Position numbers and translations under genes: made by a program. A DNA stretch of 64,000 nucleotides from Argonema antarcticum A004/B2 (lineage in GTDB: Bacteria > Cyanobacteriota > Cyanobacteriia > Cyanobacteriales > Aerosakkonemataceae), in NCBI RefSeq assembly GCF_023333585.1, contig NZ_JAIQZN010000005.1, positions 62,001-126,000 of the forward strand. The letters run 5' to 3'. Each line of letters begins with the position of its first letter. The stretch's first letter is position 1. The notes under the pieces were generated by a model. The model was not told where the DNA came from, searched no databases, and saw nothing but the letters and a program-made list of their open reading frames with translations. Positions 2 to 47,664 of the stretch are shown here, one piece after another.

Positions 2-1432
2 CCAGAGACTACACCTCAAACCGATAACCCGTCCACCACATCCGCTACAACATCTACTGCTAACCAGCTACCACCGACACCCTACGAAAATATTCGTCGC
101 CAAGGCTTAAAGAAAGAGCAATTCATCGGACGTGAGGAAGAACTGGAAACCCTCCACCGCTTGTTGCAGCAAAATCAGCAAGTGGCTATAACAGCCGCCA
201 TTGTTGGTATGGGGGGAGTGGGGAAAACGGAACTGGCGATACAGTATGGGCGAGGTCACTTGTATACCTATCAAGGTGGTGTTTGCTGGTTGCCAGCTAA
301 AAATTTTGCACCGGAACTGTTGAAATTTGCCCGTCCTTATTTTTTCCCCAAAGACAACTTGGATGGATTTTCTTCAGCTGAGCAAGTAAGATATTGCTGG
401 CTGCACTGGGCTGAAGGTGAAGTGTTACTGGTGGTGGATGATGTTACGGATTACAAGCAGCAGGTAAAGCCCTATCTGCCGGAATCACCTCGGTTTAAAG
501 TGCTGATTACCACACGAGAACGGTTGGGTAAGCCGATTGAACGGTTAGATCTGAATGTGCTGCAACCAGAGGCGGCGCTGAATTTACTTCAGGCGCTGGT
601 GGGGGCTGAACGGATTGAAGGGGAACTGGATAAGGCGAAACAACTCTGTGAATGGCTGGGCTATTTACCCTTGGGATTGGAGTTGGTGGGGCGCTATCTG
701 GAGCAAAAGCCGGATCTGTCTCTGGAAGAAATGCTGTCGCGGCTGATGGCAAAGCGGCTTAAACACAAAGCTTTGCAGAAGGCTGAGGATACTATGACGG
801 CTGAGTTAGGTGTAAGAGACGCCTTTGAGTTGAGTTGGGAACGCTTGGATGAAAATGCTCAGATGCTGGGATGCTTGCTGAGTTTATTTGCCTTGGCTCC
901 CATTCCCTGGTCACTCGTGGAAAGCGTAGCGGCTGGGAAAGACCCGGACGTTCTAGAAGATGCCAGAGATGATTTAATGCGTTTACACCTAATTGAGTGC
1001 ATCGATAAAGACACCTATAGTTTGCATCAACTGATTCGGCAATTTTTGCAGGAGAAGCTGGAAGAATCACCTCGATCCAATGACCAGAAACGTGCTTTTG
1101 TAGCGGCAATGGCAGCACTGGTAATGGCACGGGTGGCAAAGGAAAATCGTAAATTGCCTACACTTGAGGAAGTTAAATCACTCGCTCCTGTGATGCTCCA
1201 TTTAGCAAGAGCAGCCATTGTTTTAACAGAGTTTTTAAACTACGAGGAATTTGCATGGCTAGTTAACACGGTGCTTTTTGCTCAAACTCTCAGTGCTGAT
1301 ATATTGGATTACGCTCGGTCAACACAGCGAGAATGGTATTTTATTGGTCGCGATAGACTTGGACAATTAATAGAAAATAGGAAAAAAATGGGTGAAATTT
1401 GGCGTAGAAAAGGCGTGTTTGTAGATTTTTGA
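2..1432 (+). CDS. STAND/NB-ARC ATPase, 5' end outside window
   Basis: The reading frame is open from the left edge, so the true start is upstream; about 476 residues are visible. A Pro/Thr-rich linker (residues 1-35) leads into an NB-ARC module: P-loop GMGGVGKT near residue 70, Walker B VLLVVDD near 142, a sensor-like LITTRER, and the GxPLGLELVG motif near 220. A winged-helix-like part and a short helical tail follow. STAND proteins normally carry an effector domain before this linker and TPR or WD40 sensor repeats after the ATPase. The effector would lie outside the window. The sensor part looks very short here, since the protein stops after about 100 residues beyond the winged helix, so it may be truncated. 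The family acts as a signal-dependent switch in signalling or antiphage defence; the function of this member is not known. Confidence 0.85.
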   Translation, partial: PETTPQTDNPSTTSATTSTANQLPPTPYENIRRQGLKKEQFIGREEELETLHRLLQQNQQVAITAAIVGMGGVGKTELAIQYGRGHLYTYQGGVCWLPAKNFAPELLKFARPYFFPKDNLDGFSSAEQVRYCWLHWAEGEVLLVVDDVTDYKQQVKPYLPESPRFKVLITTRERLGKPIERLDLNVLQPEAALNLLQALVGAERIEGELDKAKQLCEWLGYLPLGLELVGRYLEQKPDLSLEEMLSRLMAKRLKHKALQKAEDTMTAELGVRDAFELSWERLDENAQMLGCLLSLFALAPIPWSLVESVAAGKDPDVLEDARDDLMRLHLIECIDKDTYSLHQLIRQFLQEKLEESPRSNDQKRAFVAAMAALVMARVAKENRKLPTLEEVKSLAPVMLHLARAAIVLTEFLNYEEFAWLVNTVLFAQTLSADILDYARSTQREWYFIGRDRLGQLIENRKKMGEIWRRKGVFVDF

Positions 1433-1629
1433 GTAGCGTTGAAGGTTGTCGCACCCCAATAGGGATGCAGGCAAGGCTAAAAGCGCGATCGCTACTACAA
1501 TAAAGCTAGGTTATCATTCAGAGTCAGACTGATGGACAATCAGCAAGACAGTTAGTAAGTAAAAATAATGAACCTGCGACAAAACATTAATCCGTTTATC
1601 CGTCCTTTGCGAACACAAAGGTAACAATA

Positions 1630-1671
1630 GGTAAGTTGTTGCGTTTTAGCGCTAAAACGCAACAACTTACC
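1630..1671. repeat. perfect 42-bp palindrome
   Basis: The left arm contains gtaagttgttgcgttttagc and the right arm is its exact reverse complement, with no loop. Related but divergent copies, sharing the GTTGTTGCG...TTTAGCGC core, lie at 38195-38250 and 51841-51937, so this is a dispersed family. Possible roles are a transcription stop, a cruciform or a relic mobile element. Confidence 0.85.
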
Positions 1672-1687
1672 CATGTTCATGGTAACG

Positions 1688-1858
1688 CTAATTAGTCTCA
1701 CCGATTTTTTGTTTTTCTGCACGTTTTTCTGCCATCCGCTTTTCCCATTTAGTCGCTATTTTGTCGGCAAATTCAGCCATTTATCTAGCTTTCTGTTCGG
1801 CAATTTCGATCTCTTTAATAATTTCAGCTTGTCTCTTTGCGTCTGGTAACTGTTTCAC
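1688..1858 (-). pseudogene. small Lys/Glu-rich ORF broken by a stop
   Basis: A GTG start at 1858 has a good ribosome site (GGAGG, about 1866-1870). The frame reads 25 codons to a TAA at 1781-1783, then continues in the same frame from an immediately following ATG for 30 codons to a TAG at 1688. Both halves are charged and helical, rich in Lys, Glu and Ala, and read as one small protein with one mutated codon. It could instead be two tiny adjacent ORFs. I do not recognise the family. Confidence 0.4.
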
Positions 1859-1927
1859 GGTAATTCCTCCAAAGTATTCATAATAAAGCATACCATTAAT
1901 TAGCTGTTATCATAAACCCAGAAAATC

Positions 1928-1960
1928 AGAAACCCGGTTTCTTGGAGAAACCGGGTTTCT
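1928..1960 (-). terminator. AGAAACC-type paired palindrome, likely terminator
   Basis: agaaacccggtttct and agaaaccgggtttct are separated by 3 nt, and each arm is itself nearly palindromic. The element ends 2 nt from the stop codon of the minus-strand gene beginning at 4682. The same unit recurs at 16949-16981 and 48906-48985. It would form a strong hairpin in the transcript of the upstream gene, but it has no clear U-tract. Confidence 0.55.
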
Positions 1961-1961
1961 G

Positions 1962-4682
1962 CTAAGAAGGGATGAACAATTCCGGGACTCGAATCCGCAA
2001 CTCCTCATTCAAGCGGGGCAATTCATCCCGCATTTGCAAATACCAATCGCGGCGTTCGCGGTAGTGTTGAGAAAGCAACCGATTGTCTCTCACCCATTGG
2101 TAAGCATTTGCTGCCAATTGATGTCGCCACGCAGTATCATCAATCAGCTGGCGCAAATTAGTCTCAAACTCTTCTTCGGAGCGATAAATTAACCCGGTTT
2201 CTCCTGACAAAATTGAGCGTTCATACACGGTGGGACTAGCCAGGACAGTCACCCCATGTCCAGCACATTCAATAAACTTGAGATCGGATTTCATGCTGTT
2301 AAATCGGGTTAAATTGAGGGGCAGGAAACCAATATCGCAGGTATGTAGAATTTCCTGATATCGCTCGTAGGTACAAAATGGCTCTAACTCTTTATGTGGG
2401 GTAGCCAATGCCTCAAAAAACTTCTTGTCGTAAATTACCTGCACGCGAACTTTATCGGCATATTCGGCCAGCAACTTATTCAAAACTGGCATAATCGGTG
2501 CCCAATCTTCTTCTCGATTGATAGCTCCAAAAAAGAGAGTTATTGAGTCATCGGATTTATATTGTCTTGGCTCTGGTAAGTAAGCCAATTGATTCTTAAA
2601 AATGCCAACATTGGGATTAATTTGGCGCAAAAATTCGGCGAGAGGCTCTGTAGAGGTTTGTACGCAGTGGAAAGCCCGGTAGCTGAAAAACTGATTTTCT
2701 CCATGAACGGGCCAGCGCATCGGGTCATCGTCAATTTCGGCAATGATTAAATAATCCCGTCGCAGCAGTTCTTGTAGTTTGGGGATATCATCTGGAGTTT
2801 GCAAATTACCCCGCTGCCAGATAAATACTTTATCCTCTCCTGGTTGCCCTACGCTCAAATCGGCTGCTTTGACTGCGGAAATCGTCCTTACGCCTGGAAT
2901 GGTAGAGCTAAAGCGATCGGGCTCCAATACCCGGACGCGATCGCACGCTACAGGAGCCATCATCATCGTCTGGATCAACAACCGCCGCATTGCCACAGGC
3001 GACTTGGTAGCCCGTACAACGTATTGAAATGCACCTGTCTGAACGCCAAATTGAGCCGGATCTAAGCCCAATTCCTTCACCAATGGCATGAGCTGCTGCT
3101 GAAACTTTTGGAACTCTTCCCCTTTTCGTCCCCGCGTCTGAATCTCATGCACCTGTAACTCTGCTTCAGCAAACATCTGCTTGATGCTATCCAAGGTGAA
3201 AAAGCGCAGGTGAGTGCGATCGAGCAAACCTTCATCCTCATACTTCCACTTCCCGCGCAACAGCTTGAGAATCAGACTCCAGTGCTGTACGTTGGGGATA
3301 CAAGCCAAAACTTCACCGTCTTCCTTGAGCCATGCAGTAGTGCGTTTGAGTACCGCCCAAGGGTCGATCGTATGTTCCAGTACATCCCCAAAAACCAGAC
3401 AATCAACCGTACCATCGGCAATATCTGCCTGTAAATTTGGGTCTTCGATATTTCCCACCACCACTCGGTTTAGCCTTGTCGCGGCAATCGAAGCCGCCGT
3501 CTCATTCAGTTCCAGACCGATATATTGGCAATGGGGATTAATCCGCTGATACTGTTGGCCCAAAGCTCCCGCCCCACAGCCAACCTCGACAATTACCTTG
3601 GCATCACCGGGCAGCAACCTGAGCAAATCTGGATTAATGCGATCGTAATAGTCAGGTAGCAACCTTGAGTCCTGAGTGCTGAGTGCTGAGTCCTGAGTGC
3701 TGAGTGCTGAGTGCTGAGTGCTGAGTGCGAATTCTCCCCCGCTCACCCGCTCACCCGCTCCCCCGCTCACCCGCTCCCCCGCTCCCCTGCTCCTCTCCCT
3801 CTGCTTATCAGCGAACATTTGCATGAATTTTTCGCTCCAACCCGTGCAAAAATGCTCAATTTCCAAAAAATTGGCATAATGGGACGCTGGCTTATAAACT
3901 TTAAACGATCGCATAATTCCAAGGCTGGCGGCACTTTCTAAAGGGCCCATAAAACTGGTATCGCGGTCTAGAAAATAAGGCTGCCTACTCCAATAGTTCA
4001 TTTGCGAAACATTCAAGAAATAGCAGCCCGCGTGAGGGTTACTAGCACGACTGAAAGTTACCGGGTTACCCATTATTTTCCCGATTAGTTCCGGTTCCTC
4101 TTGCAAATTCTGAAATTTAGCTGTTAGCTGCGATACCAGGTTCCCGTCGATATAGGTTTTTTGGCTTGTAGCACTGGCGTCCCGGCTGTGATTAGCGGTC
4201 GAGATTTCATAGCGATTTGGTTGCAGCAGGCACATATCACCCGCTTGCTTGGTAAACCACTTGAGTTTGACAAAAAACCAAGGGTCGTGCAAAATCAGGT
4301 CGTCTTCCATGTAGCAGAAGTAGTCATAACTACCAAGACAATCTCTCAGTAGTGACTGGCACTCAAAACCCAATAGCATCGGTTCCGAATTGGTACGGTA
4401 ATGCTTGTAGAAATGTGACGGAAGTGGAATCCGATCCAGAAGGTGAGAATCTTTAGTAGTACAGATAACTATATCTATGTCATGAGCTTGGGACTGATTG
4501 ACAGGCAAGGGAGCCCCCTTGGCAATGTCCATACTGCTCTGGGACTTCCCAAATAACTGGTGCAAAGCAGTGATAGAAGCATTTAGCGCCTGGATGCGCG
4601 GCTGAGGATCTTTAGCTTGGGAACCGTGCGTTCCGTTATCGGTTGGGTTGAAGAAGTGAGGAAGAGTGAACAGAATCCGCAT
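1962..4682 (-). CDS. glycosyltransferase-methyltransferase-glycosyltransferase fusion
   Basis: This 906-residue protein has three modules. Residues 1-290 resemble a GT-A glycosyltransferase, with an acidic [11 protein letters not shown] segment likely to bind metal and nucleotide sugar. Residues 345-580 are a class I SAM methyltransferase: [11 protein letters not shown] binding loop, [11 protein letters not shown], and a typical bactoprenol or sugar methyltransferase tail. Residues 585-906 are a GT-B-like glycosyltransferase with FLPL....[13 protein letters not shown] near the C-terminus. Together they suggest assembly and methyl-capping of a polysaccharide, but the substrates cannot be read from sequence. 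The linker at residues 296-340 is encoded by 8-bp and 7-bp tandem repeats of intergenic type, an unusual origin for a linker. A hairpin lies just after the stop. Confidence 0.88.
3664..3797. repeat. STRR arrays inside a coding sequence
   Basis: Nine heptamers of type gctgagt (3664-3726) are followed by eight octamers of types ctcacccg and ctcccccg (3734-3797). Because 7 and 8 are not multiples of 3, translation on the minus strand cycles through all phases and gives repeats of 7 residues (ALSTQDS) and 8 residues (GAGERVSG). The frame stays open throughout. Similar arrays sit between genes at 47424-47619 and 59712-59808. Confidence 0.95.
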
Positions 4683-5281
4683 AAGGTTGGTTACAATAGT
4701 GTATTAACAAAATCTTGACGAGCCGCGTAGCAACTTGCGGGAGTTGTGAATTTTTCAACATCTGTTGGCAGAAGTCCCCTTCCGAGTTGTAAACTCTAAT
4801 TCAAGTCAGGGAAGAATGCCACCGCAGCAACTAGACAATTTTACTGGATATTTTAATCTAAACTAGAAGTAGAAAATTCTGATACTTCAAGTCATCACAG
4901 CTAAATTAAATATGACTTACGCAAAAACTCTAGCTGTAGGGGTAATTCATGAATTACCCCTACAGCTAGAGAGCTTGAAATCTTAGAAAAACGTAAGTAC
5001 TATTAAAGCTGTACTGCACTGATGAGCAAAAACAACTTTAACAACAGTGTCATTACCATCATAGGACTCGTCAGGTTTGATTATTGGGGATACTAAAAAC
5101 ATCAAGCCCCGATTAAATCAGGTGTTACTCATATAGCAGGAGCAAAGATTTGATATGCCAAAACGACAAAAATTTACTACTTATTCATATCCCTTGGGAT
5201 GAAGCGGGGGAATTGACGTGCTATATTAAGCATTTGGTAACGAGTTATGCTTACTTTTTTTAAGCTCGGTAACCGAGAACA
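4683..5281. other. intergenic region with a MITE-like palindrome
   Basis: No gene is supported in these roughly 600 bases between two divergent genes. Besides the palindromic element at 4914-5000 I see no structure. Promoters for both flanking genes should lie here, but I cannot place them. Confidence 0.5.
4914..5000. mobile_element. MITE-like inverted-repeat element
   Basis: The outer inverted ends are acttacg (4915-4921) and cgtaagt (4992-4998). Inside is a perfect 44-bp palindrome (4928-4971) centred on TTCATGAA. It is small, has no coding capacity and has terminal inverted repeats, as expected of a non-autonomous transposon remnant. No target duplication was established. Confidence 0.5.
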
Positions 5282-44932: not shown

Positions 44933-47392
44933 TTGATTCAATCTGAGACTTTAGAACTACTCGAATGGCCGCGCCTGTGCCAACATTTGTCTACTTTTGC
45001 TGCCACTAAGCTGGGAGCGATCGCATCTCGTCATCTCCAAATCCCGCCAACTCAAGATGAGAGCCTGACTTTAATAGCACAAACTAAAGAAGTTTACAAA
45101 CTCGAAACTCGTCTGACATCAAGCTGGACATTTGATGGAATTTGTGATATAGGAGATGCTTTGGAGCGAGCAGGACTCCAAGGTATTTTGTCTGGAGAAG
45201 AGTTGCTGAATATAGCGACGACCCTGGCGGGGACAAGGCAGCTGCGCCGAGTCATCGACAACCAAGAAGATTTGCCCGTCCTGACAGAGCTAGTCGCAGA
45301 TTTGCGGACTTATCCAGAGCTAGAGCAGGAAATTCACCGCTGTATTGACGATCGCGGCCAAGTAGCAGACAGAGCTAGCACCAAACTCGCTGGAATTCGG
45401 CTGCAAATGCGGCAACAGCGAGACAGGATATACCAAGTATTGCAGGGGATTTTGCAGCGACAATCCGGTGCGGTGCAGGAACAGGTGATTACCCAAAGGG
45501 GCGATCGCTTTGTGATTCCCGTCAAAGCAACTAGCAAAGATGCCATTCCCGGTATCGTTCACGATTCTTCGATGAGCGGCGTTACCCTTTATGTGGAACC
45601 GAATGCAGTCGTGTCGCTAGGGAACCAGATGCGGATGTCGATCCGCCAAGAGCAAGCTGAGGAAGAAACAATTCGCAAAGCTTTGACTGAGCAGGTCGCC
45701 GCAGTTCTACCGGATTTGGAGAGGTTGTTGGCGATCGCAACTACATTAGATTTGGCAACTGCTAGAGCGCGTTACAGTTACTGGTTGCAAGCTAATCCAC
45801 CTAGATTTGTCGATCGCACAGAGGGAGAAACCGTTACCCTACGGCAATTGCGCCATCCTCTACTGGTTTGGCAATATCAGCACGAACAAGGCGCAGCAGT
45901 AGTGCCAGTGGATTTACTGATTGGGCCGCAAATTCGAGTAGTAACTATTACCGGCCCCAACACTGGTGGTAAAACGGTTACCCTGAAAACGCTGGGTTTG
46001 GCGTCGCTGATGGCGAAAGTGGGTTTATTTGTACCCGCAAGAGAACCTGTAGAATTGCCTTGGTTTGACCAAGTTTTAGCAGATATTGGGGATGAACAAT
46101 CGTTAGAACAAAGTTTATCTACCTTTTCCGGTCATATTCGCCGCATCAGTCGGATTTTAGAAGCAATTGGAGAAAAGGGAGCAGAGGAGGAGGAAATTCC
46201 CAATCCCCAGTCCCCAATCCCCAGTCCCCAATCCCTGGTATTGCTGGATGAAGTTGGCGCAGGTACTGACCCGGCGGAAGGGAGTGCTTTGGCGATCGCA
46301 CTGTTAAAATATCTGGCAGATTCCGCACAACTCACCATTGCTACCACCCACTTTGGCGAACTCAAGGCGCTGAAATATCAAGACGATCGCTTTGAAAACG
46401 CTTCTGTAGAATTTGATGATGTTAGTCTTTCGCCTACTTATCGACTACTTTGGGGAATACCCGGTCGTTCCAACGCACTCGCAATTGCGCGACGCCTGGG
46501 ACTGAATCAAGAAGTAGTTGAAAACGCCCAAACCTATGTAGGAGAAACTTCCCAAGAAGTAAACGAGGTAATTGCTGGGTTAGAAGCGCAACGCAAACTT
46601 CAGGAAACCAAGGCAGAAGAAACAGCGCAAGTGTTGAAACAGGCAGAGCGTTTTTGTCAGGAGGTTTCCCAGAAGGCAGCTGCTTTGCAGGAAAGAGAAC
46701 GACTGTTGGAACAACAAAAGGAACAGGAAGTGCAGAAAGCGCTTGCTGAAGCTAAAGGTGAAATTGCACAGGTAATTCGTCGCTTGCAACAAGGGCCGAT
46801 GACGGCTCAAGATGCAGTAGCTGCAACCGAAGCAATCAATCAAATTGCTCAACGTCATTTGCCAAAACCGCCAGCAAAACCCAAACCTGGGTTTATGCCT
46901 TCTGAAGGCGATCGCATTCGTATTCCCCGATTGGGACAAACTGCTGAAGTGCTGAGTTCTCCTAACGAAAACGGTCAGCTGACTATCCGGTTTGGGATGA
47001 TGAAAATGACAGTATCTTTAGAAGATATTGAATCCCTAGATGGTCAGAAACCAGAACTTCCAGCTAAACCGAAACCTGTGGCAGGCGAGACGCCTACCCC
47101 ACGGGGGAAACAGGCGGTGTCTGTGCAGCAAGAACCCAAACCGGCGATTCGTACATCCCAGAATACTCTCGATATTCGGGGTAGTCGGGTAGCAGATGCA
47201 GAAAGCGAGGTTGAACGTGCTATAGGTCAAGCATTAGCATCAGGAGTGCTATGGATAATACACGGTAAGGGTACTGGCAAGCTGCGGGAAGGGGTTCACG
47301 AATTCTTAAAGCGGCATCCGCTGGTCGATCGTTTTGAGTTATCGGCCCGATCGGAAGGTGGTGCTGGTGTTACTGTTGTTCACCTCAAGTAA
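44933..47392 (+). CDS. mutS2: MutS2 with Smr nuclease domain
   Basis: The protein has 819 residues from a TTG start (SETLELLEWPRLCQHL is the family N-terminus). It has a MutS core and clamp, and the ATPase with Walker A TGPNTGGKT near residue 341 and Walker B LVLLDEVGAGTDP near 437. A coiled coil at about 530-640 (KOW-like part after it) precedes the C-terminal Smr domain LDIRGSRV and IIHGKGTGKLREGV. MutS2 suppresses homologous recombination or rescues collided ribosomes, and the Smr domain cleaves nucleic acid. Immediately before Walker B there is a roughly 17-residue insertion (EEEEIPNPQSPIPSPQS) encoded by a heptamer array, at a place where the family is normally contiguous. Confidence 0.95.
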   Translation: MIQSETLELLEWPRLCQHLSTFAATKLGAIASRHLQIPPTQDESLTLIAQTKEVYKLETRLTSSWTFDGICDIGDALERAGLQGILSGEELLNIATTLAGTRQLRRVIDNQEDLPVLTELVADLRTYPELEQEIHRCIDDRGQVADRASTKLAGIRLQMRQQRDRIYQVLQGILQRQSGAVQEQVITQRGDRFVIPVKATSKDAIPGIVHDSSMSGVTLYVEPNAVVSLGNQMRMSIRQEQAEEETIRKALTEQVAAVLPDLERLLAIATTLDLATARARYSYWLQANPPRFVDRTEGETVTLRQLRHPLLVWQYQHEQGAAVVPVDLLIGPQIRVVTITGPNTGGKTVTLKTLGLASLMAKVGLFVPAREPVELPWFDQVLADIGDEQSLEQSLSTFSGHIRRISRILEAIGEKGAEEEEIPNPQSPIPSPQSLVLLDEVGAGTDPAEGSALAIALLKYLADSAQLTIATTHFGELKALKYQDDRFENASVEFDDVSLSPTYRLLWGIPGRSNALAIARRLGLNQEVVENAQTYVGETSQEVNEVIAGLEAQRKLQETKAEETAQVLKQAERFCQEVSQKAAALQERERLLEQQKEQEVQKALAEAKGEIAQVIRRLQQGPMTAQDAVAATEAINQIAQRHLPKPPAKPKPGFMPSEGDRIRIPRLGQTAEVLSSPNENGQLTIRFGMMKMTVSLEDIESLDGQKPELPAKPKPVAGETPTPRGKQAVSVQQEPKPAIRTSQNTLDIRGSRVADAESEVERAIGQALASGVLWIIHGKGTGKLREGVHEFLKRHPLVDRFELSARSEGGAGVTVVHLK
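46201..46235. repeat. heptamer array inserted in mutS2
   Basis: Five exact heptamers alternate caatccc and cagtccc. They encode the NPQSPIPSPQS insertion and end at the first residues of Walker B. The reading frame is kept because the surrounding insertion adds up to a multiple of three. Confidence 0.95.
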
Positions 47393-47423
47393 CGGGAATT
47401 TGAGAATTGCAAATTTATAGCTA

Positions 47424-47514
47424 GTGGTCAGTGGTCAGTGGTCAGTTGTCAGTGGTCAGTTGTCAGTTGTCAGTGGTCAGTGGTCAGTTGTCAGTGGTCA
47501 GTTGTCAGTTGTCA
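47424..47514. repeat. 13-unit heptamer STRR array
   Basis: Thirteen contiguous heptamers are either gtggtca (G) or gttgtca (T). The order is G-GGTGTT-GGTGTT, so after the first unit a six-unit (42-bp) block is repeated exactly. The array lies just after mutS2. Confidence 0.97.
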
Positions 47515-47523
47515 AGAAAATTT

Positions 47524-47619
47524 CTCCTCTGCTCCTCTGCTCCCCCACTCCTCCACTCCCCCACTCCTCCACTCCTCCACTCCTCCACTCCCCCACTCCC
47601 CCACTCCCCCACTCCTCCA
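47524..47619. repeat. 12-unit octamer STRR array
   Basis: Twelve octamers of types ctcctctg, ctccccca and ctcctcca begin 9 nt after the heptamer array. The same octamer family occurs at 3734-3797 and in the ruvX N-terminus. Confidence 0.95.
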
Positions 47620-47664
47620 CTCTTTAAAATGCTGTACCTCACTGAAAAAGAAAACCGTAACTGC

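Follow-up and report, generated by a model that had tools for sequence, protein, structure and literature searches.

A loop of cyanobacterial MutS2 beside Walker B that repeatedly holds tandem repeats, nearly always in frame

Several repeat systems described in bacteria bear on the locus considered here. The Rickettsia palindromic elements are dispersed repeats that lie in frame at permissive sites of proteins. The STRR sequences, which Mazel et al. are said to have described in 1990, are heptamer tandem repeats reportedly typical of filamentous cyanobacteria, and they are found within RNA genes (RNase P RNA and a tRNA-Leu intron). In Nostoc sp. PCC 7120, heptamer repeats of the type GGGGA(C/T)T are dispersed over the genome, with 68% intergenic and the remainder intragenic; according to the abstract of that study, G-rich repeats lie on the sense strand near stop codons and on the antisense strand upstream of ORFs (Rehm et al. 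2015, PMC4692102). With regard to the ATPase site itself, a Walker B mutant in B. subtilis fails at ribosome splitting (PMC10897456).

Here, we describe a heptamer array of the same general kind inside the mutS2 gene of a 64,000-nucleotide stretch of DNA from Argonema antarcticum (the window), whose source genome comprises 7.74 Mb in 249 contigs. Among titles and abstracts, where subscription papers are thinly covered, no paper on this MutS2 loop was recognised, and the main text of PMC4692102 does not contain the term "mutS".

MutS2 of the window and its insert

The product of the gene belongs to the MutS2 family, with a match of 911.8 bits to the TIGR01069 (mutS2) profile against a curated cut-off of 400; the same profile matched 12 of 14 control genomes, 7 of them above the cut-off. 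Three Pfam matches (MutS_V, MSSS and Smr) were obtained, and the protein combines an ATPase core with SH3/KOW-like and Smr domains, as a MutS2 should. The predicted model (mean pLDDT 80.4, pTM 0.62) superimposes on two solved MutS2 cores, 9kce_D (Z 30.6, rmsd 2.6, 463 aligned) and 7vuf_B (Z 30.2, rmsd 3.0, 441 aligned). Residues 340-348, 394-401 and 435-447 are what we take to be the Walker A, signature and Walker B motifs (Table 1), and both Walker motifs are unbroken in the translation and at the conserved columns.

Table 1. Features of the mutS2 region, in window coordinates; motif names are our presumptive assignments
Feature	Position	Strand	Basis
mutS2 gene, 819 aa, TTG start	44933..47392	+	ORF; TIGR01069 and Pfam matches
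Walker A codons, TGPNTGGKT, residues 340-348	45950..45976	+	translation, conserved columns
Signature-motif codons, SLSTFSGH, residues 394-401, beginning helix 394-418	46112..46135	+	translation, conserved columns, model
Purine-rich left stub of loop (GAGCAGAGGAG...)	46180..46198	+	sequence; comparison with congeners G001 and G002
Heptamer array, alternating CCCAATC/CCCAGTC, 5.3 units	46199..46235	+	TRF; shuffle control
Walker B codons, LVLLDEVGAGTDP, residues 435-447	46235..46273	+	translation, conserved columns, model
Dispersed palindrome-like repeat in the pre-Smr linker, a second repeat-prone site of mutS2	47080..47102	+	own-genome copies; linker arrays

TRF describes the array as 2.6 copies of a 14-bp period with a 100% match over 37 bp in total, and on the template strand it reads GGGGATT/GGGGACT, G-rich and with G runs. 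When the gene was compared with 300 codon shuffles of itself, the score for periods 5-12 was 14 (shuffled maximum 13) and that for period 14 was 23 (shuffled maximum 9). Because none of the 300 shuffles reaches the observed score, the array is not a product of chance. It is read in frame as ...EEEEIPNPQSPIPSPQS, which is followed directly by LVLLDEVGAGTDP, and it encodes the second part of a longer insert, EKGAEEEEIPNPQSPIPSPQS, lying between the signature helix (SLSTFSGHIRRISRILEAIG) and LVLLDEVGAGTDP. Alignment to B. subtilis MutS2 places an 18-residue gap exactly at this insert.

The heptamer array that an earlier note on this DNA had placed beside Walker B is thus real, a 37-bp in-frame tract adjoining the Walker B codons, and the view that the insertion was derived from repeats and kept in frame is supported. 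Its extent had been drawn too widely, at 46180-46250: the array proper occupies 46199-46235, while 46180-46198 is the purine-rich stub, mostly common to the two congeners, both of which have an 8-bp array there. Similarly, the description "next to Walker B" holds for the sequence, while the model puts the insert in a coil (residues 419-433) between the signature helix (394-418) and the Walker B strand (434-438). By comparison with the P-loop fold, the insert would sit at the end of that strand away from the DE residues. Loop residues 421-430 average a pLDDT of 48, which together with the variation in loop length suggests a flexible loop; the conserved stretch 493-511 also falls below 50, however, so that low confidence alone is no proof of disorder.

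Variation, distribution and likely source of the loop repeats

How unusual is an insertion at this site? The earlier note had called it striking, but aligned cyanobacterial relatives often equal or exceed the loop length of the window. Between the signature helix and the Walker B strand, the loop ranges by one measure from 21 to 136 aa (median 43, window 39); many species have minimal loops, and many other loops are as long as that of the window or longer. The relatives were taken from 76 loci of a genome collection and from genome searches, the latter including 80 genomes (79 matched) picked among the matches listed, with a minority of the full-length matches covered and with G091, G312, G329 and G340, for example, left out; the aligned B. 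subtilis and T. maritima chains represent loops outside the cyanobacteria. Tandem arrays of 6-9-bp units occur in 63 of 194 N-free loops (the N-filled L042 omitted and loops cut by contig ends uncounted), a prevalence that is inflated because the genomes were mostly picked for MutS2 matching in pieces, which enriched the sample for long loops. The period is 7 in 37 of these 63 loops, 8 in 17, 9 in 8 and 6 in one. Among the units are CCCAATC/CCCAGTC, CCCAATT, GAGCAGAG, GGGGACAA, ACTCCCC and CGAACTC, and many of the arrays are short, interrupted or impure. The 40 nearest relatives, which were not chosen by loop, yielded arrays in 10 of 34 complete loops; two of the remaining assemblies (G001, G008) break in the loop, G019 was in pieces and left out, and G009, G036 and G039 gave a weak match only, scoring like the MutS1 paralogue. 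Loops of genus g39 (L210, L212, L213, L214) also hold GC-rich palindromes, such that more than one class of repeat lands there. A 2284-aa open frame in G264 proved to be an artefact of a run of N.

Within MutS2, the arrays fall at few positions. The 92 full-length genes examined contain 52 arrays. The loop accounts for 37 of them, spread over 23 genes; a further 11 are in the pre-Smr linker, 3 sit close to residue 298 and one is elsewhere. The palindrome-like repeat in the linker of the window has an own-genome copy at G000:C152:109080-109102 and two more with 1 and 2 mismatches; it is also present in the mutS2 contig of G001 and was not found in that of G002 at up to 2 mismatches. The arrays near residue 298 are those of L006, L037 and L075, and the MutS2 matches of L117 (G007) and L118 (G010) break near residue 300, where some 100 additional nt are present. 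Over the 76 loci, period-7/8 arrays number 27 in 177 kb of MutS2, 8 in 241 kb of other ORFs of at least 200 aa (all from the four loci L015, L037, L044 and L075) and 48 in the non-ORF DNA of the flanks, which amounts to about 135 kb. For the loops alone, the count is 16 in 8.2 kb, from 10 of 71 loci; as an array makes its own loop longer, this density is in part a circular measure. At the matching loop, MutS1 is short and without insert in all 10 genomes of the same family, whose MutS2 carries arrays in 6 of 7 complete loops. The idea that any MutS-type ATPase loop tolerates inserts is ruled out by this MutS1 result.

The content of the loop turns over even within a genus. Over 1257 gap-free nt upstream of it, G001 is 97.0% and G002 97.4% identical to the window, and downstream the identity is about 94% for both, but their loops carry GAGCAGAG octamers instead of the heptamers of the window (the G001 loop being cut by the contig end). 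When the window and G002 are compared over the whole gene, identity falls at the loop and at the pre-Smr linker. In the 48 nt past the loop, synonymous differences stand at 0.43, compared with 0.31-0.35 in the four remaining stretches, a weak signal drawn from 61 non-independent same-genus pairs. Directly 3' of mutS2, window positions 47423-47622 hold heptamer and octamer arrays; their CTCCTCTG portion repeats, in reverse complement, the octamer that the congeners carry inside mutS2.

Where might such repeats come from? The 16-mer CCCAATCCCCAGTCCC of the window array has 8 matches in its own genome (G000), 6 of them outside mutS2, while the reversed control has none; with tandem consensus units at 46199-46235 and these dispersed copies, the array shows both marks of the GGGGA(C/T)T family. 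Three of the six extra places were examined, and one turned out to be inside a long ORF (L001; G000:C128, ORF 320-3016), in which an AAA_16 protein carries a MutS2-like insert, G-rich and then of the CCCAATC/CCCAGTC type. The same 16-mer has 12 matches in the L065 assembly, whose mutS2 loop carries another repeat family. Of the 12 period-7/8 arrays of the window, 3 are in long ORFs: one in mutS2 and two in an ORF of 913 aa (methyltransferase/glycosyltransferase), where a heptamer and octamer array at 3666-3793 (minus strand, stop-free stretch 1965-4703) directly precedes the methyltransferase domain and resembles the MutS2 insert. In genus g6, overlapping CCCAATT matches number 114 (G010), 26 (G285), 259 (G371) and 135 (G376), against 0-18 in ten other genomes; this unit occupies the G010 and G376 loops, and those of G285 and G371 hold related heptamers. 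The octamer GAGCAGAG, used in the loops of G001 and G002, has 24, 32 and 104 matches in their genus, g1, but since it is also frequent in G003, G008 and G330 (21-26 matches), the repeats in a loop agree only in part with those abundant in the genome.

Two further ideas about the repeats were set aside. The order of paired G-rich and C-rich arrays in the 76 loci and the window (GC 6, CC 4, GG 3, CG 0) gave too few cases (n=13), partly mutS2 loops. RNA folding, compared with shuffles, showed no marked excess in the window loop (z 0.29), its other strand (-0.72) or the G002 loop (1.20), and an RNA hairpin or foldback role was rejected on these values.

Reading frame and the competing explanations

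Among 195 distinct complete loops, where distinct refers to the loop with 90-nt flanks and not necessarily to species, 193 are in frame and two are out of frame. For arrays whose period is no multiple of 3, the frame is kept in 53 of 54 (P about 2e-24 against an expectation of 1/3, with relatedness ignored), which argues that selection keeps MutS2 readable. At the window array, the other two frames reach a stop after 22 and 3 codons, and a change of frame there would therefore cost the protein Walker B and everything downstream.

The best reading, and in our judgement a likely one, is that MutS2 has a permissive loop in which dispersed tandem repeats have settled time and again while selection has preserved the reading frame. 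In cyanobacterial MutS2, the segment that links the signature helix to the Walker B strand would be a flexible, permissive site at which short tandem repeats scattered over the genome, mostly with 7- and 8-bp units, may arrive again and again. Once in place, the arrays would change length by slippage or recombination and would later be replaced or decay by point mutation, with selection acting mainly on the net reading frame such that MutS2 stays on. The added residues, E/G-rich and then P/S-rich, would hang loosely from the far end of the Walker B strand, with probably little effect on catalysis. Perhaps some property of MutS2 that MutS1 does not share permits the inserts. The density of arrays in the loop is not fully explained by this reading, as passive tolerance offers no ready explanation for it.

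That density, which exceeds the array density of other ORFs, and the absence of inserts from MutS1 would be easier to understand if the insert were selected as a tunable flexible arm, acidic on the left and proline/serine-rich on the right, that modulates the ATPase cycling of MutS2 or its contacts with partners. The composition of the insert is indeed alike across species (left, E 19% and G 14%; right, P 19% and S 17%), and 94 of 109 long loops have a purine-left, pyrimidine-right polarity, which could reflect selection on the insert. The same polarity also fits the general placement habit of G-rich repeats, however, as outlined in the abstract of PMC4692102, and it is difficult to see an arm being tuned when its sequence and length differ even between congeners and many species manage with minimal loops; we consider this explanation unlikely. 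An assembly or sequencing artefact would be suggested by the frequency with which assemblies break at the mutS2 loop, contig ends lying at or in it in G001, G008, G310, G334, G326, G288 and G117. Considering that the window array is only 37 bp, in frame and within one contig, and that arrays also occur in genomes of few contigs (G278 with 2, G301 with 3, G300 with 7), an artefact is highly improbable.

A different possibility, raised in the earlier note, is that the non-triplet arrays form a contingency locus, a reversible on/off switch of MutS2 (and with it of ribosome rescue or recombination control) driven by slipped-strand mispairing. Its premise stands: gain or loss of a 7- or 8-bp unit shifts the frame, the window array lies in coding sequence with periods (7 and 14 bp) that are not multiples of three, and a one-unit change would frameshift MutS2, given the early stops described above. 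There is also one allele out of frame through a heptamer array, that of G376, whose loop contains 21 perfect CCCAATT heptamers between gene halves that are both open but out of register, while in its congener G010 the array comprises about 9 units, partly impure, and the gene reads through in frame. Slippage would give that frameshift, and so would a miscounted array, since G376 is a draft assembly of about 230 contigs in which the length of a 147-bp pure array may be misassembled. As a regular switch, the proposal is not supported. All other non-triplet arrays keep the frame, the sole off-frame allele comes from this draft, and many arrays lack the length or the unbroken purity of switch tracts; the window array itself, short and alternating between two unit types, is a poor candidate, although the G376 tract is long and pure. 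G308, considered as a second off allele, was discounted, having another frame break at residues 171/173 and a loop below the array threshold, and titles and abstracts yielded no paper that we recognised on such a switch. We regard a contingency locus as rather improbable, and are just as doubtful of a broader version in which the pre-Walker-B loop of large-genome cyanobacteria is a re-seeded contingency site, where in-frame changes tune the arm and occasional slips switch MutS2 off reversibly, of which G376 might be an example.

Comparison with described repeat systems

At one spot in a conserved ATPase core, different families of dispersed repeats are found across many lineages, and what visibly constrains them is the reading frame. 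This is a clear case of non-coding tandem repeats turned into protein sequence, and the loops amount to a natural insertion series for testing what MutS2 tolerates. With the Rickettsia palindromic elements, the loop shares repeats in frame at a protein site, but the MutS2 inserts are mostly tandem arrays, and no stable hairpin was detected in the insert on either strand of the window or in G002, by the z scores given above. The STRR sequences are alike in being heptamer tandem repeats, with RNA genes as their setting and a protein loop as the setting here. Phase-variable simple-sequence-repeat loci of pathogens are similar in that non-triplet coding units shift the frame upon slippage; in MutS2, unlike those loci, 53 of 54 natural alleles are in frame and many arrays are impure. 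The GGGGA(C/T)T repeats of Nostoc have the same unit as the window array, as read on its template strand. The sections of PMC4692102 that were available describe no recurrent site in a single protein across species, whereas the loop of cyanobacterial MutS2 is such a site.
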